Assembly (NCBI GenBank): GCA_004322425.1
Contig: SCVJ01000042.1
Span: 62,001-126,000, forward strand
Direction: 5' to 3'
DNA length: 64,000 bases
Source of the DNA: Chitinophagaceae bacterium
Lineage (GTDB): Bacteria > Bacteroidota > Bacteroidia > Chitinophagales > Chitinophagaceae
A program made the position numbers and the translations under genes. Positions 16,225 through 36,783 of this stretch are shown one piece after another (position 1 is the first letter of the stretch; every line of letters begins with the position of its first letter). Below the pieces are notes generated by a model that searched no databases, was not told where the DNA came from, and saw only the letters and a list, made by a program, of their open reading frames with translations.

Positions 16225-17694
16225 ATGGCAACAGACAGTAATCAATTTCAGAAAATTATTTCTCATTGTAAAGAATATGGGTTTATTTTTCCCGGCAGTG
16301 AAATTTATGACGGGCAACAAGCCGTATACGATTACGGCCAATGGGGCAGCGAGTTAAAAAAGAATATCAAAGATTATTGGTGGGATAGCATGACGCGTAT
16401 GCACGAAAATATAGTTGGCATTGATGCAGCTATTTTTATGCATCCCACTACGTGGAAAGCGTCGGGGCATATTGATAATTTCAACGATCCGATGATTGAT
16501 AATAAAGACAGCAAAAAAAGATATCGTGTAGATCATTTGATTGAAACATTTGCAGAAGAGCTAACTTCATCTGGTAATGAAATTTTAGCCAATGAAATAC
16601 TTTCTTCGATGGAAAGCTTATTGGCTAAAGATGATTTTTTGGGATTGAAAAAATTAATTGAGGATAAAAAAATTAAATGCAACATTAGCGGAACCTGTAA
16701 TTGGACTGATGTTCGGCAGTTTAATTTAATGTTCTCCACTGAATTTGGTTCTACTGCTTCAGAAAACGGGGAAGATAATATAGTGTATTTGCGTCCCGAA
16801 ACTGCTCAAGGAATATTTGTTAATTTTTTGAATGTGCAAAAAACAGGAAGGATGAAAATACCGTTTGGTATTGCACAAATAGGAAAAGCATTTCGCAATG
16901 AAATTGTGGCAAGGCAATTCATTTTTCGTATGCGCGAATTTGAACAAATGGAAATGCAATTTTTTATTCGTCCCGGCACACAAAAACAGTGGTATGAATT
17001 TTGGAAAGCTGAACGATTAAAATGGCATTTGAGTTTGGGAACTTCCACCGATAATTATCGTTTTCATGATCATATTAAATTAGCGCATTATGCGGATGCG
17101 GCTTGTGATATTGAATATAATTTTCCAATAGGGTTTAAAGAAGTGGAAGGCATTCATTCCAGAACAGATTTTGATTTGAAACAACATCAGGAATTCAGCA
17201 AAAAGAAAATGCAGTATTTCGATAATGATATTGATGAAGCAACAGGAAAACCATTTGGAAATTATATTCCTTATGTAATTGAAACATCCATTGGACTGGA
17301 TAGAATGTTTCTATTAGTGATGAGTCAGGCTTATACAGAAGAAGATTTGAGTACGGCTGAAAAGCAAGACAGTCGCGTGGTTTTAAAGTTTCCAGCAAAG
17401 CTTGCTCCATTGAAATTGGCCGTATTGCCACTCGTTAAAAAAGATGGATTACCGGAAATAGCAAGAAAAATTATGGACGATTGTAAATCTTCCTTTCGTT
17501 GTTTTTATGAAGAAAAAGATACCATTGGCAAACGCTATCGTCGAATGGATGCTATTGGTACTCCATTCTGTGTTACGGTTGATTATCAAACCAAAGAAGA
17601 TAATACGGTTACAATTCGTTATCGCGATTCAATGAAACAAGAAAGGATTTCCATTGAGAGTTTAAAAGATATTGTACTTTTAGCTATTCGATAA
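16225..17694 (+). CDS. glyS: Glycine--tRNA ligase (homodimeric type)
   Basis: FIFPGSEIYDG, YLRPETAQGIFVNFLNVQKTGRMKIPFGIAQIGKAFRNEI, MREFEQMEMQFF, ETSIGLDRMFL. Confidence 0.96.
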   Translation: MATDSNQFQKIISHCKEYGFIFPGSEIYDGQQAVYDYGQWGSELKKNIKDYWWDSMTRMHENIVGIDAAIFMHPTTWKASGHIDNFNDPMIDNKDSKKRYRVDHLIETFAEELTSSGNEILANEILSSMESLLAKDDFLGLKKLIEDKKIKCNISGTCNWTDVRQFNLMFSTEFGSTASENGEDNIVYLRPETAQGIFVNFLNVQKTGRMKIPFGIAQIGKAFRNEIVARQFIFRMREFEQMEMQFFIRPGTQKQWYEFWKAERLKWHLSLGTSTDNYRFHDHIKLAHYADAACDIEYNFPIGFKEVEGIHSRTDFDLKQHQEFSKKKMQYFDNDIDEATGKPFGNYIPYVIETSIGLDRMFLLVMSQAYTEEDLSTAEKQDSRVVLKFPAKLAPLKLAVLPLVKKDGLPEIARKIMDDCKSSFRCFYEEKDTIGKRYRRMDAIGTPFCVTVDYQTKEDNTVTIRYRDSMKQERISIESLKDIVLLAIR

Positions 17695-17704
17695 AATTAT
17701 TTGT

Positions 17705-18241
17705 ATGAAAAAAATAATATTTTCATTGTTGTTGCTAGTTAGTTCAATGACAACATTTGCTCAAGAAAAAGAAAATAGCAATTCAGGTTCTTCAAAGGGA
17801 ACTTCATTCTTTGCAGAATTAGGTGGCCCCGGCATTTTATTTTCTGCCAACTTGGATAAAAGATTTTCAAATTCTCAATTCGGATGGGGTGGAAGAGCTG
17901 GACTGGGCTTTGTTTCCGGTTATATTGTTACGGATAATTTTGGGGATTATAATCAAGCTTCTGTCGTAACTCTTCCGATTCAAATCAATTACATATTTGG
18001 TAAAACGGGTTCATCGCATACATTCGAAGTAGGTGGCGGATTTACAGTTGCAGGAAAAAAAATAGAGATTATGGATTTTTATGATGAGAAAGGAGGAACG
18101 AATTTTTTTGGTACCGCTTCATTTATGTATAGGCGCCAACCTGCGGATGGTGGTTTTATCTGGCGCGTTGGGTTTACGCCATTGATTGCTAAAGGATATA
18201 TCCAAGCATTTGTGGGAGTAAGTGTGGGTTATAGTTTTTAA
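17705..18241 (+). CDS. Putative outer-membrane beta-barrel protein
   Basis: Signal peptide MKKIIFSLLLLVSSMTTFAQ; Gly/aromatic-rich strands ending VGVSVGYSF. Confidence 0.65.
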   Translation: MKKIIFSLLLLVSSMTTFAQEKENSNSGSSKGTSFFAELGGPGILFSANLDKRFSNSQFGWGGRAGLGFVSGYIVTDNFGDYNQASVVTLPIQINYIFGKTGSSHTFEVGGGFTVAGKKIEIMDFYDEKGGTNFFGTASFMYRRQPADGGFIWRVGFTPLIAKGYIQAFVGVSVGYSF

Positions 18242-18693
18242 ACTCCAAATTGTCGCAGATGATGATCGATGTGTTTCCACATTGTTTTACCCCATTGTTC
18301 TGCTGTAAATTTTCCAAAGAAAGGATGTATTTTATCTCCAATTCCAAAACTACCTGCTTGATAAAATTTTTCAATTAAATCCAACAGTTGTTTTTTTTCT
18401 TCTTCAAATTTGCGTTCATCTTTTATAATAAAAATAGGAGAAGTGGGTAGGCTATTCTTCCAAGGAGCATCGTTATACATTATTTTTTTTACCATCCAAC
18501 CAATCAATCTTCCTAAAAGTAAACGGCGTACAGGTTTTCCTTTTAAGAGTATTTTAAATCCAATTTGTAAATGAGCTAACATTTGTCCAACGCTCATCTT
18601 TCCCCATTGGCCTTTTGAGTCTGCCGATAAATTGTTTATTCGAGTATTTGTTTCTTGATAAGTTTCTGTATCGAAAAGATTTTTTATAAACAT
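18238..18693 (-). CDS. DUF1569/DinB-like protein
   Basis: Start at MFIKNLFDTETYQETNTRINN; GKMSVGQMLAHLQIGFK and WGKTMWKHIDHHLRQFGV are DinB-superfamily-like His motifs. Confidence 0.75.
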   Translation of the reverse strand: MFIKNLFDTETYQETNTRINNLSADSKGQWGKMSVGQMLAHLQIGFKILLKGKPVRRLLLGRLIGWMVKKIMYNDAPWKNSLPTSPIFIIKDERKFEEEKKQLLDLIEKFYQAGSFGIGDKIHPFFGKFTAEQWGKTMWKHIDHHLRQFGV

Positions 18694-18697
18694 TCTA

Positions 18698-19057
18698 TTA
18701 AAAAATTTGTTCAAAATAAGGAATCTCTTCGCTGCTAATATTTTCTTTTTGTTGCCAATACGCCAGTGTAACAATTTGCCCTTTTGCAGTTTTTAATGTT
18801 CTTCCAAAAATGGCATTGGTGGAATTAAAAGAAACATCAGTAACGCCCAAGGTAAAAGTTTCAATAACGGGTTCTTGTATTTCACTTGGAGTAGGTACTA
18901 TTTTTGGAGGAGGAGAAGGAACTACCACTACAGTAAAATTATTCTTCTCTAATAATTGTTTTAAAAAAATTACACGATCTGGTGAAACAGTTTTTTCAAC
19001 GACAGCACATTTTTTTCCTTCCAAGTCTTCAAATTCGTGATTTTTATTGATTGCCAT
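18698..19057 (-). CDS. Uncharacterised small protein downstream of nuoN
   Basis: Start at MAINKNHEFEDLEGKKCAVVEK; 21 nt after the nuoN stop and same strand; no family recognised. Confidence 0.65.
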   Translation of the reverse strand: MAINKNHEFEDLEGKKCAVVEKTVSPDRVIFLKQLLEKNNFTVVVVPSPPPKIVPTPSEIQEPVIETFTLGVTDVSFNSTNAIFGRTLKTAKGQIVTLAYWQQKENISSEEIPYFEQIF

Positions 19058-19078: not shown

Positions 19079-20485
19079 TTATTTTAATAAAGAAAAAATA
19101 TAGTTGTAAACAGTATTAAAAATACCGGTACAAATTATTCCAATAACACATAGTAACAGTGCTAGTTTTGGGAAAAGATGAACTTTTATTTTTTCGATGG
19201 GCTTTTCATTTTTAGTCATAAAAATTGCCTGAATCACTCGCAAATAATAAAATAAAGCAACCACCATATTTAATGCAGCAATTGTAATAAGCAAATAGTT
19301 TCCTTTGCTTGCTCCGGCTAGTAACAAGAAAAATTTTCCAAAGAAACCTGCTGTGGGAGGAATGCCGGCTAAAGAAAATAAGGCAAGGGCTAAAACCCAA
19401 CTCAATGTTGGATTAGTTTTATAAAACCCATTAAAATCATTCATTGATTCTTTTCCTGTTTGTGCACTCACAATTGTCAATACTCCGAATGCTGCAAGAT
19501 TTGAAAAAAGATAAATGACAATAAAAAACACAACGGATGCCGTACTGACAATATTTTGTCCACTTATTCCAATTAAAATAAAACCTACTTGTGCAATGGA
19601 TGAAAATGCAAGAAATCGTTTCATGTTTTGTTGGCGAAGCGCAAAAAGATTTCCGACAATCATTGTAAGAATAGAAAGTAAAAACAACATGTTGTACCAA
19701 CTAGTTGATAGAGGCTCAAATACAGTATATAAAACTGAAGTGAATACAAAAAGAACTGCACCTTTTGAAATCACCGATAAATAACTAGTAACCGCTACTG
19801 GCGCGCCTTCGTAAACGTCGGCTGTCCACAAATGAAATGGAACTGCTGATATTTTAAATGCAAAACCTGTGAGTAATAAAATAAATGAAAATAGTTGCAA
19901 GGGGCTTCCGTTGAGCGCAGCAGGTATTTCAACAAAATTTAAAGTTCCTATCGTTCCATAAAGTAATGAAATACCAAACAGCAAAAGAGTAGAAGAAAAG
20001 GCTGATGAAATAATCATTTTGAATGCCGCTTCGGAAGATTGGCGTTTTTCTAAATCAAAATTGGTGAGCGCCGCCAATGGAATTGTAGAAAGTTCTAACG
20101 CTAAATAAAACATTAGTAAATTATTACTGGAGAGCATAAAATACATTCCTAATAAAGTTGACAACATCAAGATGTAAAATTCCACAAGGTGTTTGTGGGT
20201 TTTCAACCAGTCGTAAGATTGTAATGAAATAATGAGTACGCCAACATTCAGTATGTTTTTTTCAAAAATCAATAAATCATTTGTTTGAAACATGTCACCA
20301 AAAAGCGTTCCGGAATTAGTTGTAAAAAAGCCGCCAATCAGATTTATGAGCAACAGTAGATTTATGATATTTAACAGGTTTACTTTACTCAACTCTTTAC
20401 TGCTGAGTTTTAAAAAAAGCAGTATAAAAATTATTATGGTTAATAATAGTTCTTGTAGCATCAATTGTAAAAAATCAGATAGCAT
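19079..20485 (-). CDS. nuoN: NADH-quinone oxidoreductase subunit N
   Basis: Multi-TM antiporter-like protein; ALELSTIPLAAL, FHLWTADVYEGAPVAVTSYLSVISKGA, LSLAGIPPTAGFFGKF. Confidence 0.93.
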   Translation of the reverse strand: MLSDFLQLMLQELLLTIIIFILLFLKLSSKELSKVNLLNIINLLLLINLIGGFFTTNSGTLFGDMFQTNDLLIFEKNILNVGVLIISLQSYDWLKTHKHLVEFYILMLSTLLGMYFMLSSNNLLMFYLALELSTIPLAALTNFDLEKRQSSEAAFKMIISSAFSSTLLLFGISLLYGTIGTLNFVEIPAALNGSPLQLFSFILLLTGFAFKISAVPFHLWTADVYEGAPVAVTSYLSVISKGAVLFVFTSVLYTVFEPLSTSWYNMLFLLSILTMIVGNLFALRQQNMKRFLAFSSIAQVGFILIGISGQNIVSTASVVFFIVIYLFSNLAAFGVLTIVSAQTGKESMNDFNGFYKTNPTLSWVLALALFSLAGIPPTAGFFGKFFLLLAGASKGNYLLITIAALNMVVALFYYLRVIQAIFMTKNEKPIEKIKVHLFPKLALLLCVIGIICTGIFNTVYNYIFSLLK

Positions 20486-20495
20486 TTTTAAAAAA

Positions 20496-21992
20496 CTATT
20501 TAATTAATAATTTGTTTATGATAATTTCTGTGCCCGGACTTAATAAATCTTTTAACCAAAAAGGACTTATTCCAATAGCGATGATTACGGTAACTAATAA
20601 AATAACAGCCAATCGTTCGTTCCAACTTGCATCACTTAAAATAGCGTGTTCCTTATTTTTTAAAGGGCCCATTATTACACTGCCAGTTGCTCTTAATATA
20701 TACACAGCTGTTACTACAATAGAAGCACAAGCAAGTATAGTTACGATTCGATAAAACAAATCTACTTTTTCCCAAGCACCAACAAAGACGGTTACTTCAG
20801 CAACAAAACCGCTCAGTCCTGGTAATCCCAAAGAACACAAACCGGCAATTACAAAAGCAGTAGAAATGAATGGAAGTACTTTTAGTAATCCACCTAATTG
20901 TGCTACTTGCCTCGAATGAGTTCGATCGTAAATCATTCCAATTACTGCGAAAAAGAGAGCCGTCATCAAGCCATGAGAAACCATTTGAAGAACAGCGCCA
21001 TCAATTGCAGTTTTTGTAAGTATTCCAATTCCCAGTAAAACAAATCCGCAATGACTAACGGATGAATAGGCGTTTATATATTTTAAATCCGTTTGCATCA
21101 TGGTAGCAAAGGCACCATAAATAATAGCAATGATGGCAAGAACAATAATTATTGTGGAATATTCCTTTGCAGCTTCGGGCATTAAATAAGTAGCTACTCT
21201 CAAACAACCATAGCCACCCAATTTCATAGAAATTCCGGCAAGAAACATAGAAGCCGCAGTAGGCGCAGATGAATGTCCATCGGGAACCCAAGTATGAAAA
21301 GGAAATAGAGCCGTAAAAATTCCAAAACCAATAAATGCAAAAGGGAAAAATAATTTTTGAACTGCAATGGGTAAATTAAGTGAAGCAATTTGTACTAAAT
21401 CAAAAGTTGGAGTTCCATTAATATTGGAATCAAAATAGATTCCTGCAAAGGCAACGAAAACCAGTGCAGATCCGCCCATTAGCATCAAGACCAATTTCAT
21501 GGCACTATATTCTTTTTTACCACTACCCCAAATTCCAATGAGTAAAAATTTTGGTATCACCGCTACTTCAAGAAAAAAGAAAAGTGTAAATAGATCAAGC
21601 GCAATAAAAAATCCATATGCACCAAGACTTAACAATAAAAGTAAAAAGAAAAATTCTTTACTTCGATGTTCCATATTCCAGGAAACTAAAACTCCGGCTA
21701 GCACGACAAATGCCGTAAGTAAAATCATAGCAATTGAAATTCCATCTACTCCAATATGGAAATTAATATTTAAAGGAGCATACCAAGTAATATTATTTTC
21801 GAAATAGAAATGAGCCAGATTGCCCGCTTCTCTTTCCACTATATAAAAGTAGAATAAGGCAATACTGAATATTAGTTGAGCAATAGATCCCAGCAAAGCA
21901 ATGGTACGAATTTGCTTTTGGCTATTCGGTAAAAGCATCGCTAGTACAGTGAATAGCGGAATTAATATGAGCGGCAATAAACTTATTTCCAT
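20496..21992 (-). CDS. nuoM: NADH-quinone oxidoreductase subunit M
   Basis: FPFHTWVPDGHSSAPTAASMFLAGISMKLGGYG; SSVSHCGFVLLGI; GLPGLSGFVAE. Confidence 0.94.
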   Translation of the reverse strand: MEISLLPLILIPLFTVLAMLLPNSQKQIRTIALLGSIAQLIFSIALFYFYIVEREAGNLAHFYFENNITWYAPLNINFHIGVDGISIAMILLTAFVVLAGVLVSWNMEHRSKEFFFLLLLLSLGAYGFFIALDLFTLFFFLEVAVIPKFLLIGIWGSGKKEYSAMKLVLMLMGGSALVFVAFAGIYFDSNINGTPTFDLVQIASLNLPIAVQKLFFPFAFIGFGIFTALFPFHTWVPDGHSSAPTAASMFLAGISMKLGGYGCLRVATYLMPEAAKEYSTIIIVLAIIAIIYGAFATMMQTDLKYINAYSSVSHCGFVLLGIGILTKTAIDGAVLQMVSHGLMTALFFAVIGMIYDRTHSRQVAQLGGLLKVLPFISTAFVIAGLCSLGLPGLSGFVAEVTVFVGAWEKVDLFYRIVTILACASIVVTAVYILRATGSVIMGPLKNKEHAILSDASWNERLAVILLVTVIIAIGISPFWLKDLLSPGTEIIINKLLIK

Positions 21993-23911
21993 AAATAAAT
22001 AAAGACTACTAACATTGAAATTATACCTGCAAAAAAGTAAAGTAAATAATGTTGAATTTTTCCTGACTGCACTTTTCGAATCAAGAAAGAAATATTTTGT
22101 GTACTGTTGGCAATGCCATTCATCATCCCATCTACAATATTTTTATCAATCCAAGCAGCTGGACGTCCTACTAGATTAAAAATTATTTTTTCAGTTATAA
22201 AAAGATAAAGCTCGTCCACATAAAATTTATGATAAGCAGCTCGATAAATGCTGCCGAAAGAAACTGCCAGTTGTTTTGCTTTGTTACTTTCATTTTTGTA
22301 AATCCACAAAGCGATTAAAATGCCTGCAACTGCAATTGTAACGGGTGCTATGGAAAAAATTGGGTCAAAATGTGAAGCTGCTACTTTGTTGTTGAAAGAA
22401 ATATATTTTCCAAAAGGAATAAATCCAACAAGAACCGAACAGGTTGCTAAAAGAACAAGAGGTAATTTCATCGTCCACGTTCCTTCATGATGGAAATGGT
22501 GAAGTTCTTTTTGTTTGTTCCAGAATATTGAAAAGTATAAACGGAACATATAAAATGCCGTTAATCCAGAAGTAATTAAGGCAATAAAAAATACAATTTT
22601 ATTTGAATGATAGGCGGCTAATAATATTTCTTCTTTACTAAAAAATCCTGCGAAAGGTGGTATCCCTGCGATTGCCAAGCAAGCAATTAAAAACGTCAGA
22701 TGAGTAATCGGCATATATTTTCTTAATCCACCCATATCTTTCATTTCGTTGCTGTGCACAATATGTATTATTGCGCCCGCAGCAAGAAATAATAACGATT
22801 TGAAAAATGCATGAGTGAATAAATGAAATAAGGAAGCAGTATATCCTAAAGAATTTTCTATACCCACGTTTGAACTTCCGATTGCAAACATCATAAATCC
22901 AATTTGAGACATAGTAGAATATGCCAATACTCTTTTGATATCTGTTTGTGTACACGCAATAACGGCTGCTAAAAATGCAGAAATCAATCCAACAAATGTT
23001 ACAATATTCAATGCAGTTTCTGCAATAGAAAAAAGAGGGAATAAGCGAGCTACTAAAAAAACTCCAGCAACCACCATTGTTGCAGCGTGAATTAATGCAG
23101 AAACAGGAGTGGGGCCTTCCATTGCATCCGGCAACCAAATGTGCAATGGGAACATGGCGCTTTTGCCAGCACCACCCATAAAAATTAAAATCAAACTCCA
23201 AGTTAAAATACTTACACCCGCAAAGGAGGCTGTAGTTATTGCAGTGAATTGTAAAGATTGTGTATCCGTTAATTGACGAATAAGTGTGCTGAATTCAAAA
23301 CTATCTCCATAATAGCCCAATAAAAGAATACCGATGAGAAAACCTAAATCTGCAAATCGAGTAACAACGAATGCTTTTTTTGATGCAGCTACTGCAGCAG
23401 GTTTTTCAAAATAAAATCCGATTAATAAAAAAGAAGACACCCCAACCAATTCCCAAAAAATATAAATTTGAAATAGATTACTGGATATGATTAATCCTAA
23501 CATGGAAAAGGTGAAAAGAGAAAGAAAAGAAAAATAAGTTGCTAATCTCTCTTCACCTTTCATATAACCGATACTGAAAAGATGCACCATGAATGAAATA
23601 AATGTTACAACAACCAGCATCATTACAGAAATAGGATCCATCAAAATACCCAGGTCAATGGATAAATTATTTGAAAAACTAAGCCAGGTGATATGGAAGA
23701 CAGTAAGAGTTGGATAAGTTCCGTTGATGGGGCCTTCTACAATAAAATAATTATAAGATGTGTACAGCGCCAACAACGTACATGTTAGCAATAATAGTGA
23801 ACCGATAACGCCAGAGCTTTTTGAAAAATATTTTTTTCCGAATAAACCCAACACAACAAATCCGCATAAGGGCAATAAGAGAATTAAGGATATGATAATT
23901 GAGTAATTCAT
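21983..23911 (-). CDS. nuoL: NADH-quinone oxidoreductase subunit L
   Basis: FWELVGVSSFLLIGFYFEKPAAVAASKKAFVVTRFADLGF; FPLHIWLPDAMEGPTPVSALIHAATMVVAGVFL. Confidence 0.95.
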   Translation of the reverse strand: MNYSIIISLILLLPLCGFVVLGLFGKKYFSKSSGVIGSLLLLTCTLLALYTSYNYFIVEGPINGTYPTLTVFHITWLSFSNNLSIDLGILMDPISVMMLVVVTFISFMVHLFSIGYMKGEERLATYFSFLSLFTFSMLGLIISSNLFQIYIFWELVGVSSFLLIGFYFEKPAAVAASKKAFVVTRFADLGFLIGILLLGYYGDSFEFSTLIRQLTDTQSLQFTAITTASFAGVSILTWSLILIFMGGAGKSAMFPLHIWLPDAMEGPTPVSALIHAATMVVAGVFLVARLFPLFSIAETALNIVTFVGLISAFLAAVIACTQTDIKRVLAYSTMSQIGFMMFAIGSSNVGIENSLGYTASLFHLFTHAFFKSLLFLAAGAIIHIVHSNEMKDMGGLRKYMPITHLTFLIACLAIAGIPPFAGFFSKEEILLAAYHSNKIVFFIALITSGLTAFYMFRLYFSIFWNKQKELHHFHHEGTWTMKLPLVLLATCSVLVGFIPFGKYISFNNKVAASHFDPIFSIAPVTIAVAGILIALWIYKNESNKAKQLAVSFGSIYRAAYHKFYVDELYLFITEKIIFNLVGRPAAWIDKNIVDGMMNGIANSTQNISFLIRKVQSGKIQHYLLYFFAGIISMLVVFIYLWK

Positions 23912-23913
23912 TA

Positions 23914-24228
23914 TTAGTATTTCATTTCTGTTGCATCTTCTACATCAATGGATTGATGGCTGCGATAAAGGTTAATAATGATGGCAATAGCTACTGCAGC
24001 TTCGGCAGCAGCAATGGCAATGATGAAAATGGTAAAAAAGATTCCATCTAATCTTTCAGGAAATAAATATTTGTTGAAAGCAACAAAATTAATGTTCACG
24101 CTATTTAATATTAATTCAACGGCCATCAACATAGTAATCATATTGCGACGTGTAAATAACCCATACAAGCCAATGAAAAATAAAGCCGTGCTCAAAAATA
24201 AAATATGATTTATAGAAATTTCATTCAT
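23914..24228 (-). CDS. nuoK: NADH-quinone oxidoreductase subunit K
   Basis: LFTRRNMITMLMAVELILNSVNINFVAF; AIAAAEAAVAIAIIINLYR. Confidence 0.94.
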   Translation of the reverse strand: MNEISINHILFLSTALFFIGLYGLFTRRNMITMLMAVELILNSVNINFVAFNKYLFPERLDGIFFTIFIIAIAAAEAAVAIAIIINLYRSHQSIDVEDATEMKY

Positions 24229-24740
24229 TTTTCTATCGGTTTAGATTTCATTGCAATAACAATACAACCTACCATGGCGGCCAATAATAGAATGCTTACC
24301 ACTTCAAAGGGCAGCGCAAATCCTGTATTGTCTGTGGCAAGCATGTGAGTTCCAATTCTTTCAATATCGGAATCAAAATATTTATTTTCAATTCGAAAAC
24401 CATTCTGATAAATAAGTAAATACGTTAGTGCAAACCCGAAGAATATTGCTAACGCAGATAGTAGTATTCTGGAAGAGGATACTTTAGGCATTTCCTTTCC
24501 GGATTGTTGTGTTAAAAAAATTGAAAAAATAATTAAGACCACAATACCGCCAACATAAACAACAATCTGAACTGCTGCAATAAATTCAACAGCGAGCCAA
24601 AAATAAAGTCCTGCAATTCCAATTAACGAGAACAAAAGCCAAATAGCAGAGCGAAATATTTTTCGAGTAGTAACGGATAAAATTGCTGCAGCTAAAATAA
24701 ATGTCGCTAAAAAATAAAATATGATGGATGTTGCGCTCAA
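24225..24740 (-). CDS. nuoJ: NADH-quinone oxidoreductase subunit J
   Basis: LFSLIGIAGLYFWLAVEFIAAVQIVVYVGGIVVLIIFSIFLTQ. Confidence 0.92.
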   Translation of the reverse strand: MSATSIIFYFLATFILAAAILSVTTRKIFRSAIWLLFSLIGIAGLYFWLAVEFIAAVQIVVYVGGIVVLIIFSIFLTQQSGKEMPKVSSSRILLSALAIFFGFALTYLLIYQNGFRIENKYFDSDIERIGTHMLATDNTGFALPFEVVSILLLAAMVGCIVIAMKSKPIEK

Positions 24741-24760: not shown

Positions 24761-25237
24761 TTATTCTATTCCTGCTCTAATTTTTGAATCGGGTTTATTT
24801 AAAATTTTTGTCAATTTGCTTCTATCAAATACACTGTGCTCAAATGTGTTTGCCATTTTTATGGCATCTGTCGGACAAGCCACAATACACAAATTGCAAA
24901 AAGTGCATAAATCTAAATGATAAACAAATGTATTAAGTGCTTTTTTCTTTTTTCCTTCAGGTGTTGTATCAATTTGGGTAATAATTTTTATGGTGGCGTT
25001 GGGGCAAGCTAACTCGCAAGCGGTACAGCCGGTGCAAGCATGTTCATTATTTTCATCGTGAATCATCACCACTTCTCCTCTAAAACGTTCCGGTAAGCTT
25101 AGAGAATCTTTGTTGTCGGGGTATTGTTGGGTAATGATTTCCTTATGATGCGTAAAATAATATCCTGTTCGTCTCATGCCGATGAGCAACGACTTAACAG
25201 CGTAATAAATATCCTGTAAATATTTTTTTAAAAACAT
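24761..25237 (-). CDS. nuoI: NADH-quinone oxidoreductase subunit I (2x[4Fe-4S])
   Basis: CTGCTACELACP and CTFCNLCIVACPTDAI ferredoxin motifs; RFRGE. Confidence 0.94.
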   Translation of the reverse strand: MFLKKYLQDIYYAVKSLLIGMRRTGYYFTHHKEIITQQYPDNKDSLSLPERFRGEVVMIHDENNEHACTGCTACELACPNATIKIITQIDTTPEGKKKKALNTFVYHLDLCTFCNLCIVACPTDAIKMANTFEHSVFDRSKLTKILNKPDSKIRAGIE

Positions 25238-25248
25238 AATTTAATCAA

Positions 25249-26325
25249 TTAAAAATGCCAACCCATAATTGCCATTAATGTGGTTAATAATAAATTAAAC
25301 ATACTGATAGGCAACAAATATTTCCATTCTAAATTTAATAACTGATCAATGCGCAAACGCGGAAAAGTCCACCGGAACCACATGATGATAAAAATCAGAA
25401 AAAAAGTTTTTCCAAAAAGCCATAGCGACGAAGGAATATAATCCATCAATTCATTGAATCTCGTATCTGTGCCAAAATGCAACGGCATCCATCCTCCTAA
25501 AAACAAAGTGGCACCCAATACACATACAATAAAAATATTAACATACTCTGCCAAGAAAAATAAAGCAAACTTCATTCCTGAATATTCTGTATGAAAACCT
25601 GCAGTCAACTCGCTTTCAGCTTCGGCTAAATCAAAAGGTGCACGATTTGTTTCTGCTGTAACTGCAATGATAAAAATTACAAAAGCGATGAGGGCAGGGA
25701 TATGTCCTTTAAAAATCCACCAACCATCCGACTGTGATTGAATAATTGTCGATATTTTTAAACTTCCAGTTAGTATTACAATTGTGATAATAGAAAGTCC
25801 GGCCGATAATTCATAACTCACAATTTGTGCGCCACTTCGCATAGCTCCCAGCAATGAATATTTATTGTTGCTCGCCCAACCGGCCATTAAAATCCCAATA
25901 ACTGAAACCGAAGAAACAGAGGCAACAAATAGAATGCCAATGTTTAAATCCCATAGTTGAAAATTTTTTGCAAAAGCCAATGGAGCTAAGATTACCATTG
26001 CAACAATCATTACAATAAAAGGTGCCAGATTGAATAAAAATTTATCTGCGCCATTTGGCGTCATTCCTTCTTTTACCATCAATTTCAATGTATCCGCAAC
26101 TGTTTGAAACATTCCCTTCGGGCCCACTCGATTTGGTCCAAGCCTTACTTGCATATACGCAGAAACTTTGCGTTCCATCATAATTAATATCAAACCCAAC
26201 ATTGAAAATAGCCCTATCGCACTTACTGCAACAATCACCAATTCTATCAACAATGCCGTAGTTGAATTAAAGGTGATGTTTAACCAAGTATGAATTATGT
26301 CGGCTATGTTTTCTAAACTGGGCAT
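25249..26325 (-). CDS. nuoH: NADH-quinone oxidoreductase subunit H
   Basis: ERKVSAYMQVRLGPNRVGPKGMFQTVADTLKL; AETNRAPFDLAEAESELTAGFHTEYSGMKFALFFLAEY. Confidence 0.96.
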   Translation of the reverse strand: MPSLENIADIIHTWLNITFNSTTALLIELVIVAVSAIGLFSMLGLILIMMERKVSAYMQVRLGPNRVGPKGMFQTVADTLKLMVKEGMTPNGADKFLFNLAPFIVMIVAMVILAPLAFAKNFQLWDLNIGILFVASVSSVSVIGILMAGWASNNKYSLLGAMRSGAQIVSYELSAGLSIITIVILTGSLKISTIIQSQSDGWWIFKGHIPALIAFVIFIIAVTAETNRAPFDLAEAESELTAGFHTEYSGMKFALFFLAEYVNIFIVCVLGATLFLGGWMPLHFGTDTRFNELMDYIPSSLWLFGKTFFLIFIIMWFRWTFPRLRIDQLLNLEWKYLLPISMFNLLLTTLMAIMGWHF

Positions 26326-26368: not shown

Positions 26369-27496
26369 TCATCTGTCAATATCTGGAATAACTAAATCAA
26401 GTGAACCCATGATGGCAATCAAATCGCCAATCTTACTTCCTCTTGCCATAAAATCTAAAGCACTTAAATTAGAAAATCCGGGCGATCTAAATTTAATTCT
26501 GTATGGTGTGGTTCCGCCTTCACTCACAATGTACACACCAAATTCTCCACGCGCTGTTTCTATTTGCGAATAAAATTCTCCTTTGGGTAATTTTAATACT
26601 GCTTTTGTTTTTGCTTGAAAATCACCTTCGGGAATAACGTCAATTAATTGTTCAATTATTGAAAGTGATTGTTTCATTTCTCTCATACGAACCATATAAC
26701 GTGCAAAGCAATCGCCACCAGTTTCAATTATTTCATCAAACTTTAGTTGTGAATAAATTTCGTAAGGATTGAGTTTACGTACATCACAATAAACTCCGCT
26801 ACCTCTTGCTACTGGACCAGTACAGCCATAAGAAATAGCATCTTCTTTTGAGATAATGCCAATTCCTTTTGTCCTATTTTGAAAAATAATATTGTCGGTT
26901 AATAATTCATCATACTCAACTATCTTACTTTTGAAATGTGGAATAAATTCTTTTACTCTTTTTTGAAAATTAGGATGAAGATCTGCCATCACACCTCCGG
27001 GAACCATATAATTCATCGTGAGACGAGTACCACAGGTTTCTTCAAAAATATCGTTGATCATTTCTCTTTCACGAAAAGCATGAAAGAACGGTGTGAGTGC
27101 TCCAATATCCATAGCATTCGCACCCCACCAAAGTTGATGAGAAGCCATTCTTGTTAATTCATCCATCAATACACGAATGGCTTGTGCTCGTGGAGGAACC
27201 TCAATTTGCAATCCATTTTCTATACATAAAGCGCAACCATGATTATTAATGTGCGATGAGAGATAATCCATTTTGCTGGTTACATATATGAATTGACGAT
27301 AACTTAAACTTTCACACATTTTTTCAATCGATCGATGGATATAACCAAGATGAGGTTCAATTTTTTTTATGGTTTCACCATTTAATGTAATGACCAAGTG
27401 TAATACACCGTGTGTGGAAGGGTGCTGTGGGCCTACGTTTATTATTAAATCGCCTTCAATTGAAGTATCCTGCACTATGTCGGTTTCGCGGTACAT
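26369..27496 (-). CDS. nuoD: NADH-quinone oxidoreductase subunit D
   Basis: NVGPQHPSTHGVLHLVITLNGE; GYIHRSIEKMCE; ARGEFGVYIVSEGGTTPYRIKFRSPGFSNL. Confidence 0.96.
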   Translation of the reverse strand: MYRETDIVQDTSIEGDLIINVGPQHPSTHGVLHLVITLNGETIKKIEPHLGYIHRSIEKMCESLSYRQFIYVTSKMDYLSSHINNHGCALCIENGLQIEVPPRAQAIRVLMDELTRMASHQLWWGANAMDIGALTPFFHAFREREMINDIFEETCGTRLTMNYMVPGGVMADLHPNFQKRVKEFIPHFKSKIVEYDELLTDNIIFQNRTKGIGIISKEDAISYGCTGPVARGSGVYCDVRKLNPYEIYSQLKFDEIIETGGDCFARYMVRMREMKQSLSIIEQLIDVIPEGDFQAKTKAVLKLPKGEFYSQIETARGEFGVYIVSEGGTTPYRIKFRSPGFSNLSALDFMARGSKIGDLIAIMGSLDLVIPDIDR

Positions 27497-27975
27497 TAAA
27501 GTTTTATCATATTTATAGGATCTTCAAAATCTTTTAACATTGGTCTTTTATTTTCCCAGCCATCGGGCAAAATGAGTAACCGTAAATCAGGGTGATGTAA
27601 AAAATTTACACCAAACATTTCATAAACTTCTCGTTCATGAAATTCGGCAGTACGCCAGATTGATGACACTGTTTCAATTTCAGGATGTTCTCTATCTAAT
27701 GTTATTTGTAAAACTAGAGGTTGTCGATGTGTAGTGGATGTAAAATGATACACCATCGTCAAATGAGTTTTCCAATCTATACAAGTGAGGCAAAATAAAA
27801 AATCAAAGTGGAATGAAAGATTTGTTTTGAGTTGGGTTACAACATTCAAAAAATCTTCTTTAGAAATATTCATTTTCAACCAAGTTCCACTTTCATCAAT
27901 AGTTGCAGAAGGTATCTCAGTTGTAAATTGAGGAAATAATTCAATGAGTTTTATTTTCAAATCTTCTTTTGTCAT
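27496..27975 (-). CDS. nuoC: NADH-quinone oxidoreductase subunit C
   Basis: VSSIWRTAEFHEREVYEMFGVNFLHHPDLRLLILPDGWENKRPMLKDF. Confidence 0.94.
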   Translation of the reverse strand: MTKEDLKIKLIELFPQFTTEIPSATIDESGTWLKMNISKEDFLNVVTQLKTNLSFHFDFLFCLTCIDWKTHLTMVYHFTSTTHRQPLVLQITLDREHPEIETVSSIWRTAEFHEREVYEMFGVNFLHHPDLRLLILPDGWENKRPMLKDFEDPINMIKL

Positions 27976-28529
27976 TGAATAACCTGTTCGGGTTTTTGCA
28001 TTCTAATTTGTTCTCTGGTAAGCCCACTTTTTATTTTTTCTTGTAAAGTAATCATCGCATGAAGTAATGCTTCGGGTCGTGGCGGACAACCGGCAATATA
28101 AACATCAACAGGAATTATATGATCTGCTCCTTTTACAACAGAATACGTATTGTAAAAAAAAGGCCCTCCGCTAGTAGCGCAAGCGCCCATAGCTATTACA
28201 TATTTAGGATCGGCCATTTGATCGTACAATCTTTTCAGCACAGGCCCCATTTTATTAACAATGGTTCCGGCAATAATAATTACATCAGCTTGGCGGGGCG
28301 TTGCTCTTGCTACTTCAAAACCAAATCGACTCCAATCATATTTTGCACCGGCCGTACTCATCATTTCAATAGCGCAACAACTAGTTCCAAAAACTAATGG
28401 CCATAAAGAATTTGATCGTGCCCAATTGATTACATCATCAATTCTACTTAACAGAACTCCTCCGGTGGGCGACGGATGTACTGTTCCTGGAAAAGCATCC
28501 ATTTGTGATGTGGTAGGTTTTATATCCAC
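27972..28529 (-). CDS. nuoB: NADH-quinone oxidoreductase subunit B
   Basis: FGTSCCAIEMMSTAGAKYDWSRFGFEVARATPRQADVIIIAGT; MGACATSGGPF; YIAGCPPRPEALLHA. Confidence 0.96.
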   Translation of the reverse strand: MDIKPTTSQMDAFPGTVHPSPTGGVLLSRIDDVINWARSNSLWPLVFGTSCCAIEMMSTAGAKYDWSRFGFEVARATPRQADVIIIAGTIVNKMGPVLKRLYDQMADPKYVIAMGACATSGGPFFYNTYSVVKGADHIIPVDVYIAGCPPRPEALLHAMITLQEKIKSGLTREQIRMQKPEQVIQ

Positions 28530-28870
28530 TTTAAAGCTCCTTTTTTGTGGGCATATAAAAACCCGATAAATAATATGAAAAAGAAAATAACAATTTCAAC
28601 AAACGCTAACCATCCCATACTTTTTGCCACAACTGCCCAAGGGTAAAGAAAAATAAGTTCAACATCAAAAATTAAAAAGATAAGTGCAAACAAATAATAT
28701 CCCACATTAAATTGTACCCAACTTGGCCCACGTGTGGGTACACCACATTCGTAGGTTTCACCTTTTTGTTTATTCTTCGTTGCTTTTAAAACTATTTTGG
28801 AAACCAGCATTGCAATACCGGAAAAAGCAATGGCAGCAATTATTAAAACAATTAGTGAAGAAGCGCCCAT
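28520..28870 (-). CDS. nuoA: NADH-quinone oxidoreductase subunit A
   Basis: YECGVPTRGPSWVQFNVGYYLFALIFLIFDVELIFLYPWAV. Confidence 0.94.
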   Translation of the reverse strand: MGASSLIVLIIAAIAFSGIAMLVSKIVLKATKNKQKGETYECGVPTRGPSWVQFNVGYYLFALIFLIFDVELIFLYPWAVVAKSMGWLAFVEIVIFFFILFIGFLYAHKKGALKWI

Positions 28871-28944
28871 AGCGAATTTGTGTTTGTACGAAAATAAGAA
28901 CTCCTATTTACAAAACGAACAGAGAGTTGTCAATTTTAAAACAG

Positions 28945-29667
28945 TTATCCGTATAATTCCTGGTGAATGGATTTTTTGTCATAACCCAATTCGACGATTC
29001 GATTTTTGGCTTCATCAATCATATTCTTCCATCCGCATAAAAAGAAATGGGCGGGTTGTTTTGATCCACAGAGTTCTTCATAAATGACATGCAAGTATCC
29101 GGTTCGTCCTTCCCACTGTTCTCGGGATAATACAGGAATGTATTGAAAAGTTGGAAGTTCCTTTTGTAATTGAGATAATTCATTATGATACAACAAATCT
29201 TCTTTTGTTCTTGTACCAAAAATTAAATAAATATTTTGGTGTGATATTTTTTTATTATTAATGTGATGAGCCATACTTCTGAATGGAGCAATACCCGTAC
29301 CGGTACAAATGAAAAAGAGATCATGATTCAAGTCATCTTCTTTTAGTGTAAATACTCCTTGTGGTCCACGAAATACTAATTCACTTCCTATATTTATTTC
29401 ATTAAAAAGATAGGTTGTTCCGGCGCCAAGTTTGTTGAGAACAATAATTAATTCAAAAATATTACTACCGTCGGGACTGTTGGCAATTGAATAACTCCGT
29501 AGTCGTTTATTTACTTTTTCATGAATGGGTAAATCTAGTGTTACAAATTGTCCGGGTGTAAATTGAAACTCTGTGATTTCAGGCACTTCAATCCAAAATT
29601 TTTTGGTATTGTAGGTTTCGTCTTCAATACGAATTACGTTTCCTTTTATCCAAGGTAATAATGCCAT
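28945..29667 (-). CDS. FNR-superfamily FAD/NAD(P)H-dependent oxidoreductase (ferredoxin-NADP reductase-like)
   Basis: FAD motif KRLRSYSIANSP; GPQGVFTL; nucleotide motif FICTGTGIAPFRSM; IFGTRTKEDLLYHNEL; FFLCGWKNMIDEAK. No fused 2Fe-2S domain. Confidence 0.88.
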   Translation of the reverse strand: MALLPWIKGNVIRIEDETYNTKKFWIEVPEITEFQFTPGQFVTLDLPIHEKVNKRLRSYSIANSPDGSNIFELIIVLNKLGAGTTYLFNEINIGSELVFRGPQGVFTLKEDDLNHDLFFICTGTGIAPFRSMAHHINNKKISHQNIYLIFGTRTKEDLLYHNELSQLQKELPTFQYIPVLSREQWEGRTGYLHVIYEELCGSKQPAHFFLCGWKNMIDEAKNRIVELGYDKKSIHQELYG

Positions 29668-29725: not shown

Positions 29726-30265
29726 TCACAAATGGGCATCAGGCTCCAACAGCACAATTGTTTTGCTTCTTGCGAAATATTTTTTTCCTCTCCAATAATA
29801 TCCTAAAACAAGTTCTGAATTTTTAATAATTCGAGCTAAATAGCGAGATCGAAAAGTAGCCATATCGCTTATGAGACCAATAGGATAGGCTAGTACAATT
29901 TTATTATTTGTATTGGGAACTAAATAGGTTGTATCGCCTAATGTGTTTGCAGGGTAAATAAGTTTAGTAACGGGTGTGGTTGCAATTTTTTCACATTTTG
30001 CTTTGAATCTTTTTCCGGATATCCATAAATCAACCGGTTCGATTTCTTCCAAATTATCTGTTTCAATATAAAACCAATAATTATAAGTTGGAAGGTGCTC
30101 GGTTCTGATGGTATTTCCTTTTTCATCAGTTATCTTTTGTAAAATTCCAGGAATATTATCCTGTTTGTAGGCATAAATTTCTTTTATTGGAAATGAATAT
30201 TGTGCAAATACTGCACTATTTAAGAGCAAGCCAAATAGGATAGAAGTGATTAATTTCTTTTTCAA
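29726..30265 (-). CDS. Exported hypothetical protein
   Basis: Signal peptide MKKKLITSILFGLLLNSAVFAQ; 3 nt downstream of the T9SS cargo gene on the same strand. Confidence 0.7.
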   Translation of the reverse strand: MKKKLITSILFGLLLNSAVFAQYSFPIKEIYAYKQDNIPGILQKITDEKGNTIRTEHLPTYNYWFYIETDNLEEIEPVDLWISGKRFKAKCEKIATTPVTKLIYPANTLGDTTYLVPNTNNKIVLAYPIGLISDMATFRSRYLARIIKNSELVLGYYWRGKKYFARSKTIVLLEPDAHL

Positions 30266-30268
30266 AAT

Positions 30269-33354: not shown

Positions 33355-36300
33355 ATGAGTGTACAAGGGTTGTTGGATTTGTATAAAAATTCTCCCCGTC
33401 TTTTTCAATTGACGGACAAGCTTTCTATTGACAGACCTCAAAAAATAAGGGTAGAAAATCTTGCCGGAAGTTCAAAACAGTTTCTTTTTTCAGCAGTTTT
33501 ACAGCAATCAAGGCTCGCTCAATTGAACCATTTAGTTGTGTGTAATGATGCGGAGGAGGCGGCTTATTTTCATAATAATGTGGAGCAACTCACCAATGCG
33601 TTAAATATTTTTTATTTTCCTTCTTCGTTCAAGCATCCAAAAGATTTTACTCGGCTTCACAGTAGTCACGTGATGATGCGAACGGAAGCAATTACAAAAA
33701 TTGCTACACAATTCAAGCAAAACAATTCAGTCAATAAAAAAATTCTAATTACTTACCCCGAGGCGTTAATTGAAAAAGTAGTATTGCCTGATTTGATTTC
33801 ATCCAGTTTAATTTTTATTAAAGTTGGAGATGAATTGAAAGTAGAAAATTTACTGTTGCAGTTATCGAATTATGGATTTGAAAGAACTGATTTTGTTTAT
33901 GAACCCGGACAATTTGCTATTCGAGGTGGCATTCTGGATATTTATTCTTTTGGAAATGAAAAACCATATCGGATTGAATTGTTTGGGAATGATGTGGAGT
34001 CCATAAGAATTGTGGATCCTGAATCGCAAATGAGTGAGCGAAAGCTTTTACAAGTCAGCATTATCCCAAATGTTGAAATAAAATTTTCTGACACAGAAAA
34101 AATTTCACTTATAGAATTTTTTCCGGCCAATACTGTTATTTGGTTGCAAGATGAAGAACTGATATTTGAAAAGATAAAAAAAATCGAACAAACTTTTCGT
34201 GAGTTTAATAAAACAGGAAAAGAGGAACTTGAAGAAAATAAAAGCAATGACGACGAATCTGAACTTCGAATTCATTTGTCGAATAAAGATTTTTGTACTG
34301 GTGAAGAATTGGAAAAACAATTTGCTACTCGGCGTTGCATTTTGTTTGAAAACAATTCGAGTAGAAAAATGAGTTCAAACGAATCTGCTATTTCATTTAC
34401 TATAAAAAATCAGCCAACATTCAATCGCAATTTTGATTTATTGATTAGCGATTTAAAAAACTGGGAAAAGAATGGATTCAGTATTTATTTGTTTGCAGAA
34501 AATCCAAAACAGTTAGAACGATTGTACAACATTTTTGAAGATGTAAAAGCCAACATTCATTTTACTCCCATTGCCACTGCCATTCACGAAGGGTTTATTG
34601 ATGAAGATGTAAAAATAGTTTGCTACACCGATCACCAAATATTTCAACGCTATCATAAATACCGCATCAAACAAGTTTATAATAAAAGCAAAGCACTTAC
34701 TTTACGCATACTTCGTGAATTACATCCCGGCGATTTTGTAACGCATATTGATCATGGTGTTGGTGTTTTCAGTGGGTTGCAAAAATTGGAATCGAATGGA
34801 AGAGTGCAAGAAGCCGTGCGGATTATTTACAAAGACAGTGATGTTCTTTATGTTAATATTAACTCGCTGCACAAGATTGCAAAGTATTCTGGTAAAGAAG
34901 GCACTATTCCAAAAATCAATAAACTAGGAAGCGATGTTTGGAATAAATTAAAAGAAAAAGCAAAAGTAAAAGTTAAAACCATTGCGTTTGATTTAATAAA
35001 ACTTTATGCGCAACGAAAAGCACAAATGGGCTTTGCACATACACCGGACAATTATTTACAAACAGAATTGGAAGCTTCTTTTATCTACGAAGACACTCCG
35101 GATCAAGCCACAGCAACAAGCGATGTAAAAAAAGATATGGAATCCTCATCACCAATGGATCGATTGGTTTGCGGCGATGTAGGATTTGGTAAAACAGAAA
35201 TTGCCATTCGAGCTGCTTTCAAATCTTGTGTTGATGGAAAGCAAGCGGCAATATTAGTTCCCACTACCATTTTGGCATTTCAGCATTATAAAACATTTTC
35301 TGATCGGTTGAAAGATTTTCCGGTTACGATTGATTATATCAACCGATTTAAATCTTCGAAAGAAAAAAAAGAAATACTTCAAAAACTTGAAGCTGGAAAA
35401 ATTGATATCATTATTGGTACACACGGATTACTAAGTAAAGATGTGAAATTTAAAGACCTTGGATTGTTGGTTGTTGACGAAGAACAAAAATTTGGCGTAG
35501 GACATAAGGAAAAAATTAAAACCTTTAAAACAGCAGTTGATTGCTTAACATTAACGGCAACTCCAATTCCAAGAACACTTCAGTTTTCGTTGATGGGGGC
35601 AAGAGATTTGAGTATTATCAATACTGCGCCACCAAATCGGCAGCCCATTCAAACGGAAGTTTCAGTTTTTAATCAGGACTTAATCCGCGAGGCAATTTAT
35701 TATGAAACAGAACGTGGTGGACAAGTTTTTTTTATTCATAATCGTATTCTGGGATTGCCAGAAATAGCAACACTACTGCAAGGACTTTGTCCCGATTTGA
35801 GTATTGGATTAGCGCACGGTCAAATGGAAGGACATCAATTAGAAAAACATATTCTTGATTTTATTGATAAAAAATATGATGTGTTGGTTTGTACTAATAT
35901 TGTTGAAAGTGGCGTAGATATTTCCAATGTCAATACAATTTTTATTCATAATGCGCATCAATTTGGATTAAGCGATTTGCATCAATTGCGCGGTAGAGTG
36001 GGACGCAGTAATAAAAAAGCTTTTTGCTATTTATTGGCACCACCCAAAAGTACTTTGCCAGATGACTCCAGAAAAAGATTACAAACTTTAGAACAACATG
36101 CCGATTTGGGAAGTGGTTTTCAAATTGCCATGCGTGATTTGGATATTCGTGGCGCCGGCAATATGCTGGGTGGTGAGCAGAGTGGTTTTATGACTGAGAT
36201 TGGTTTTGAAACCTATCAAAAAATTCTGGATGAAGCCATTCGTGAATTAAAAAGAACTGAATTTAAAGAGTTATTCAAAGATGAAATTTCTAAACAAGAC

Positions 36301-36783
36301 GATTTTGTATCAGAATGTAGTATTGATACGGATTTGGAAATTTTAATTCCCGATGAATATGTAGAAAGTATTACAGAAAGATTATCGCTGTATCAGCGAT
36401 TAGACAATTGCGAAACGGAGGATATTTTGCAGAATATGGCGAAGGAATTAAAAGATAGGTTTGGAGAATTGCCTACTGCTGTAAGCGATCTTTTTGTAAC
36501 GGTTCGTTGTCGTTGGATAGCTGTAAAGCTGGGATTTGAAAAGTTAGTTTTAAAAGACAATCAGTTGCGTTGTCATTTTATCAATAAGCACGATTCACCA
36601 TTTTTTGAATCAGTCATCTTTAAAAAAATTCTATTGTTTTTGCAAACTGAAACGAATGTTGCTCGTTTAAAACAAAAAGGAAAATTATTTTTGTTGCAAG
36701 TGGAGCCCATCAAAGAGATGGATTCTTTATTACAATTTTTGCAAAAAATGCATCGATTTTGTTTTGAAAAAATAAGCCAATAA
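33355..36783 (+). CDS. mfd: Transcription-repair coupling factor
   Basis: CarD/RID region PGDFVTHIDHGVGVFSGLQ; helicase motifs MDRLVCGDVGFGKTEIAIRAAF, VDEEQKFGVGHKE, LTATPIPRTLQFSLMGARDLS, QLRGRVGRS; C-terminal TRCF domain. Confidence 0.97.
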   Translation: MSVQGLLDLYKNSPRLFQLTDKLSIDRPQKIRVENLAGSSKQFLFSAVLQQSRLAQLNHLVVCNDAEEAAYFHNNVEQLTNALNIFYFPSSFKHPKDFTRLHSSHVMMRTEAITKIATQFKQNNSVNKKILITYPEALIEKVVLPDLISSSLIFIKVGDELKVENLLLQLSNYGFERTDFVYEPGQFAIRGGILDIYSFGNEKPYRIELFGNDVESIRIVDPESQMSERKLLQVSIIPNVEIKFSDTEKISLIEFFPANTVIWLQDEELIFEKIKKIEQTFREFNKTGKEELEENKSNDDESELRIHLSNKDFCTGEELEKQFATRRCILFENNSSRKMSSNESAISFTIKNQPTFNRNFDLLISDLKNWEKNGFSIYLFAENPKQLERLYNIFEDVKANIHFTPIATAIHEGFIDEDVKIVCYTDHQIFQRYHKYRIKQVYNKSKALTLRILRELHPGDFVTHIDHGVGVFSGLQKLESNGRVQEAVRIIYKDSDVLYVNINSLHKIAKYSGKEGTIPKINKLGSDVWNKLKEKAKVKVKTIAFDLIKLYAQRKAQMGFAHTPDNYLQTELEASFIYEDTPDQATATSDVKKDMESSSPMDRLVCGDVGFGKTEIAIRAAFKSCVDGKQAAILVPTTILAFQHYKTFSDRLKDFPVTIDYINRFKSSKEKKEILQKLEAGKIDIIIGTHGLLSKDVKFKDLGLLVVDEEQKFGVGHKEKIKTFKTAVDCLTLTATPIPRTLQFSLMGARDLSIINTAPPNRQPIQTEVSVFNQDLIREAIYYETERGGQVFFIHNRILGLPEIATLLQGLCPDLSIGLAHGQMEGHQLEKHILDFIDKKYDVLVCTNIVESGVDISNVNTIFIHNAHQFGLSDLHQLRGRVGRSNKKAFCYLLAPPKSTLPDDSRKRLQTLEQHADLGSGFQIAMRDLDIRGAGNMLGGEQSGFMTEIGFETYQKILDEAIRELKRTEFKELFKDEISKQDDFVSECSIDTDLEILIPDEYVESITERLSLYQRLDNCETEDILQNMAKELKDRFGELPTAVSDLFVTVRCRWIAVKLGFEKLVLKDNQLRCHFINKHDSPFFESVIFKKILLFLQTETNVARLKQKGKLFLLQVEPIKEMDSLLQFLQKMHRFCFEKISQ

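Follow-up and report, generated by a model that had tools for sequence, protein, structure and literature searches.

The DNA analysed here (64,000 nt, hereafter the window) belongs to contig C15 in an assembly of 2.24 Mb in 318 contigs that is listed as 100% complete. It carries a cluster of 11 genes, nuoABCDHIJKLMN, which runs from position 28870 down to 19079 on the minus strand (Table 1). None of nuoE, nuoF and nuoG was found between these genes. With these 11 genes clustered and E, F and G absent, the locus has the composition of an 11-subunit (N-module-less) complex I, in which the nuoI product is the expected point of electron entry. A small gene that we term nuoX follows nuoN, and a gene of the FNR superfamily lies 74 nt upstream of nuoA on the same strand. 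An earlier note on this DNA had proposed the FNR as electron-input partner of the complex; its description of the 240-aa FNR gene, with motifs, strand and 74-nt gap to nuoA, was confirmed from the sequence.

Table 1. Features of the nuo locus and its surroundings in the window
Feature	Position	Strand	Remark
mfd	33355..36783	+	FNR neighbour conserved with or without nuo (76/120 FNR loci)
FNR-superfamily flavoprotein, 240 aa	28945..29667	-	FAD and NAD(P) domains, no 2Fe-2S domain (motifs, Pfam, fold)
TATTTTCG, promoter-like box	28889..28896	-	26 nt before nuoA ATG; TAnnTTYG conservation in related spacers
nuoA	28520..28870	-	
nuoB	27972..28529	-	
nuoC	27496..27975	-	
nuoD	26369..27496	-	query for the 11-gene locus survey
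nuoH	25249..26325	-	
nuoI	24761..25237	-	two 4Fe-4S clusters
nuoJ	24225..24740	-	from position in cluster and conservation in relatives
nuoK	23914..24228	-	
nuoL	21983..23911	-	
nuoM	20496..21992	-	
nuoN	19079..20485	-	
nuoX	18698..19057	-	119-aa protein of no known family, directly after nuoN; start codon from alignment
glyS	16225..17694	+	far border of the slot filled by nuo (FNR-glyS synteny in nuo-free loci; beyond nuo in G005)

The FNR open reading frame contains RLRSYS and CTGTGIAPFRSM and matched the Pfam families FAD_binding_6 (2e-13) and NAD_binding_1 (2e-22). These two domains, the RxYS and GTGIAP motifs and the fold place the protein in the FNR superfamily. Its confident AlphaFold model (pLDDT 95.5) matched GcoB, NqrF, BenC and FPR (TM 0.8-0.9, identity about 20-27%). 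The best sequence-profile matches in the PDB (7e-33 to 1e-31) were BenC-type oxygenase reductases and the FAD domain of NqrF, which together with the P450 reductase GcoB also head the fold matches. Unlike BenC and NqrF, however, the window FNR has no 2Fe-2S domain, scores far under the NCBIfam cut-offs and is not adjoined by oxygenase or nqr genes in the loci read. It resembles E. coli FPR (1fdr), a ferredoxin/flavodoxin-NADP+ reductase, in both domains and in size (25% identity, TM about 0.8), but it remained far below the curated cut-offs for ferredoxin--NADP+ reductases (PRK10926, 59 bits vs 390; PetH, 55 vs 600). Of the Ser-Arg..Tyr residues associated with NADP(H) binding, S181 was invariant, and R182 and Y191 were conserved at 90% or more; in NqrF, which uses NADH, the aligned positions read S-D. 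By analogy with known FNRs, NADP(H) appears likelier than NADH as the substrate. The closest named relatives of the gene were found in Chitinophagaceae and other Bacteroidota assemblies.

Although the FNR gene and nuoA lie on the same strand, 74 nt apart, the spacer between them contains a conserved promoter-like box. The earlier note had reported TATTTTCG at this position and cautioned that it could be a separate nuoA promoter. The box is there, and the caution has gained weight: among 29 distinct spacers between FNR and nuoA, 23 contained TAnnTTYG, roughly 25 nt ahead of nuoA, compared with a mean of 3.9 after shuffling, and 0/300 shuffles reached 23. Counted at -45..-10, it was present in 14/19 (0.8 expected). 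A similar box was found in 8/32 loci with neither FNR nor kor adjoining (1.0 expected) and in 0/14 loci linked to kor or ferredoxin alone. The conserved box resembles the Bacteroidota -7 box. Its conservation suggests that nuo probably has its own promoter, favouring a separate transcript over an fnr-nuo transcription unit, and membership of the FNR in the nuo operon is weakened by it. By eye, many of the FNR-nuoA spacers (28889-28944 in the window, and those of relatives) have in common a TTGATAACTCTCAT-like stretch upstream of the TATATTCG-type box (about -25); it is possibly a regulator site.

We surveyed 120 genomes of the family (at least 90% complete), of which 50 carry a window-type NuoD (at least 68% identity) and 70 do not; many are metagenome-assembled, and the counts are uncorrected for kinship. 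FNR orthologues (E <= 1e-50) were detected in 99/120 genomes, 47/50 with the 11-gene locus and 52/70 without (Fisher p = 0.006, kinship uncorrected). Co-occurrence was thus not strict, with the FNR absent from three locus bearers. Among 31 sampled genomes of the order outside the family that carry the 11-gene locus, about half had an FNR homologue and those of family f9 mostly had none; in 0 of these 31 did FNR and nuoD share a contig. A dedicated FNR subunit of the complex was rejected on this distribution in family and order genomes.

Immediate same-strand adjacency of fnr and nuoA was kept in 16 of the 50 locus-bearing family genomes (G000, G005, G033, G148, G068, G070, G111, G064, G099, G140, G115, G108, G025, G027, G104 and G084). 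The more constant neighbour was mfd, present in 76/120 FNR loci (some genomes counted twice), compared with 15 in which nuoA was the next gene downstream. The common nuo-free order was mfd< FNR> <glyS <dtd. The nuo unit lies between FNR and glyS both in the window and in G005; in G140 and G027, glyS is found about 7-8 kb further along. The genes of the conserved block to which the FNR belongs have unrelated functions, so that conserved adjacency within it says little about a functional tie. On the NuoD tree, adjacency required nine label changes; a single origin is compatible with this, and both insertion and loss of nuo at the slot are possible. The conservation of adjacency named as a check in the earlier note gave a mixed result: it was kept in a minority of locus bearers and the FNR persists in most non-bearers, yet in the FNR neighbourhoods read the gene never stood beside a 14-gene nuo locus, all nuo neighbours being of the 11-gene type.

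Two genes lie between FNR and mfd in the window (29726-33253, minus strand). One encodes a 179-aa protein that matched no Pfam family, the other a BNR-repeat-like secreted protein of 994 aa that carries a weak Por secretion tail; both genes are variable in relatives. In family f3, the 11-gene cluster is split over two places (L239 with L274 in G190; L283 with L273 in G038), and the part ending in nuoM-nuoN-nuoX directly precedes FNR, which in L239, and likewise in L283, comes about 100 nt after nuoK-L-M-N-X. In f9 genomes, 3-4 kb of other genes separate nuoL from nuoM (L299:2487-5198; L301:4898-9176; L314:360-4008). In L299 they encode an ATPase-like protein of 583 aa and an HNH-like one of 244 aa, which may represent a defence system inserted into the nuo operon.

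The earlier note had taken NuoEFG to be missing, which holds for the window locus and not for the genome. A PF01512 search located NuoF on contig C67 as part of a nuoD-E-F-G stretch; the second nuo locus to which this stretch belongs additionally has A, B, C, H, I, K, L, M and N. The presence of nuoEFG elsewhere had been named in the same note as speaking against its proposal. NuoB, C, D and I are 47, 29, 35 and 33% identical between the second and the window locus. A NuoF-family protein was detected in 119/120 family genomes, including 49/50 bearers of the 11-gene locus, a few of the matches (550-600 aa) possibly being other diaphorases. The sole bearer without a PF01512 match was G100 (95% completeness).

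In genomes without FNR adjacency, the genes beside nuoA were often one for a 4Fe-4S ferredoxin of 115 aa and, after it, korA and korB. The latter two encode a 2-oxoacid:ferredoxin oxidoreductase (TIGR03710, 654 bits, cut-off 483; TIGR02177, 248 bits, just below 262). Ferredoxin and/or korAB directly adjoined nuoA in 15 loci from four families and in several orientations: ferredoxin and kor on the same strand as nuoA in the family (L038, L055, L056, L060), korA-korB-nuoA on the same strand with gaps under about 25 nt (L291 of f11, L293 of f19), a divergent arrangement (L064, L065 and L067 in the family; L285, L286, L288, L297 and L298 in f9) and ferredoxin without kor (L068). No FNR homologue (E <= 1e-35) was found in 4/5 of the f9 genomes with the divergent arrangement. 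korB was present in 50/50 locus-bearing and 55/70 other family genomes. Full KorAB and ferredoxin families adjoin nuoA in relatives, unlike in the window genome, where korB (contig C27) and the ferredoxin (contig C177, 64%) lie on separate contigs, neither of them linked to nuo. The linkage supports, without proving, an electron path from 2-oxoacid via KorAB, ferredoxin and NuoI to menaquinone.

The distribution of nuoX was much tighter than that of FNR. The gene was present in 50/50 locus-bearing and 1/70 other family genomes, and in the single exception (G106) it stands behind a nuoN, the contig being short. It stood after nuoN in every locus for which nuoN and the next 400 nt were read; these loci represent eight family codes (f1, f3, f5, f9, f11, f15, f17, f19). 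The nuoX profile had no match in the 14-type locus stretches read (L001, L002). NuoX comprises a beta-alpha-beta N-terminal part, an Ala/Pro-rich linker and a conserved GVTDV..N..FGR C-terminal part. It had no NCBIfam, PDB sequence or credible Pfam match, and the best hit of a PDB fold search was not below E 0.6. Matches of six NuoX members to Pfam DEC-1_N (best 2.6e-4) were rejected as an artefact of the linker. In cyanobacterial NDH-1, ferredoxin is the donor and is docked by NdhS; NuoX showed no significant fold match. NuoX may be an accessory or docking subunit. We tentatively suggest that it could be an unrecognised twelfth component of the N-module-less complex I in this order, docking KorAB-charged ferredoxin and thus doing an NdhS-like job without resembling NdhS. 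A DUF1569/DinB-like gene follows nuoX in the window (18238-18774, minus strand) and is kept in G005, G033, G140, G108, G027 and G068.

Taken together, we favour, at a probability of roughly two in three, that the FNR is a general, widely kept reductase whose adjacency to nuoA is mainly positional, and that the 11-gene complex is a ferredoxin:menaquinone oxidoreductase fed by KorAB. We infer every electron-transfer step in this reading from gene content, linkage and conservation. The FNR would be an ordinary flavin reductase of its superfamily, single-domain and dependent on NAD(P)H, and the 11-gene nuo unit, with its own putative promoter, would fill the slot between FNR and glyS, which would make the adjacency mainly positional. 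KorAB would reduce the 115-aa ferredoxin, which would pass electrons to NuoI, and their onward transfer to menaquinone would be coupled to ion pumping. An exchange of electrons between NADP(H) and this ferredoxin pool may be mediated by the FNR, which would be neither a dedicated subunit nor the main input; most likely it is at most an indirect partner of the complex. This reading is supported by the many FNR-bearing genomes without the locus, the locus bearers without FNR (three in the family and most in f9), the mfd-FNR-glyS synteny without nuo and the conserved box before nuoA. It is also supported by the 15 loci with ferredoxin/korAB beside nuoA, including f9 genomes without FNR, by korB in all 50 bearers, by the same ferredoxin and korB on other contigs of the window genome and by the proposal for Desulfitobacterium hafniense of a ferredoxin donor fed by pyruvate:ferredoxin oxidoreductase (PMC11238625). 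Against it stand the occurrence of FNR-nuoA adjacency in many genera, the f3 arrangement, which is harder to ascribe to chance, and the mild, kinship-uncorrected enrichment of FNR with the locus. Moreover, kor is unlinked to nuo in the window genome, and korB also occurs in most non-bearers.

The strongest competing explanation follows the original proposal: as a functional partner for electron input, the FNR would oxidise NAD(P)H, reduce ferredoxin or NuoI directly and so replace the N-module, at least where KorAB is unlinked. It draws on the same-strand adjacency across 74 nt retained in 16/50 bearers, on the FNR after nuoN-nuoX in a second family (f3), on residues compatible with NADP(H) binding and on the restriction of nuo neighbours to the 11-gene type. 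We nevertheless regard the proposal as unlikely, as most orthologues have no adjoining complex, many have none in the genome, many f9 locus bearers have no FNR, a promoter-like box lies inside the spacer and nuoEFG is present elsewhere. In addition, at equal ratios it is energetically unfavourable for NADPH to reduce a low-potential ferredoxin. Some association between FNR and the 11-gene nuo locus is real, but ferredoxin-KorAB outcompetes the FNR as electron-input partner.

Alternatively, NuoEFG of the second locus could also dock onto the 11-gene complex and make NADH its donor. The window genome has nuoE, F and G, and nearly all locus-bearing family genomes have a NuoF-family protein. However, the two loci share just about 29-47% identity in NuoB, C, D and I, G100 has the 11-gene locus without a PF01512 match, and the repeated ferredoxin-korAB linkage indicates a different donor, so that we consider such docking highly improbable. 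More improbable still is an assembly or regulatory role of the FNR, for instance as a reductase aiding general Fe-S cluster assembly and co-localised by weak selection, with which its broad distribution and conserved single-domain architecture would agree but to which nothing specific points, no assembly genes adjoining the FNR in the loci read.

EFG-less complexes of this kind are already known. The 11-subunit complex I-like enzymes of Bacteroides fragilis (PMC7002350) and D. hafniense (PMC11238625) and cyanobacterial NDH-1 share nuoABCDHIJKLMN without EFG, and a non-NADH donor is expected. In B. fragilis, the EFG-less nuo made no contribution to NADH:quinone activity, and the donor was drawn as unknown (PMC7002350). 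The D. hafniense study called the donor unresolved and favoured pyruvate:ferredoxin oxidoreductase with ferredoxin (PMC11238625), and reduced ferredoxin was suggested as electron source for an EFG-less cluster of Melioribacter (PMC3534657). In contrast to these systems, the window genome combines the locus with a 14-type locus, nuoX follows nuoN, and nuoA is linked to ferredoxin-korAB in relatives. In the open-licence literature we found no description of kor-fdx-nuo or fnr-nuo linkage in Bacteroidota or of nuoX.

Published work has yet to settle the direct donor of bacterial 11-subunit complex I (PMC11238625; PMC7002350), and the FNR is probably not the answer. The repeated linkage of nuoA with ferredoxin and KorAB, together with a strictly co-occurring small protein, provides specific and testable candidates in a group that has cultured members.
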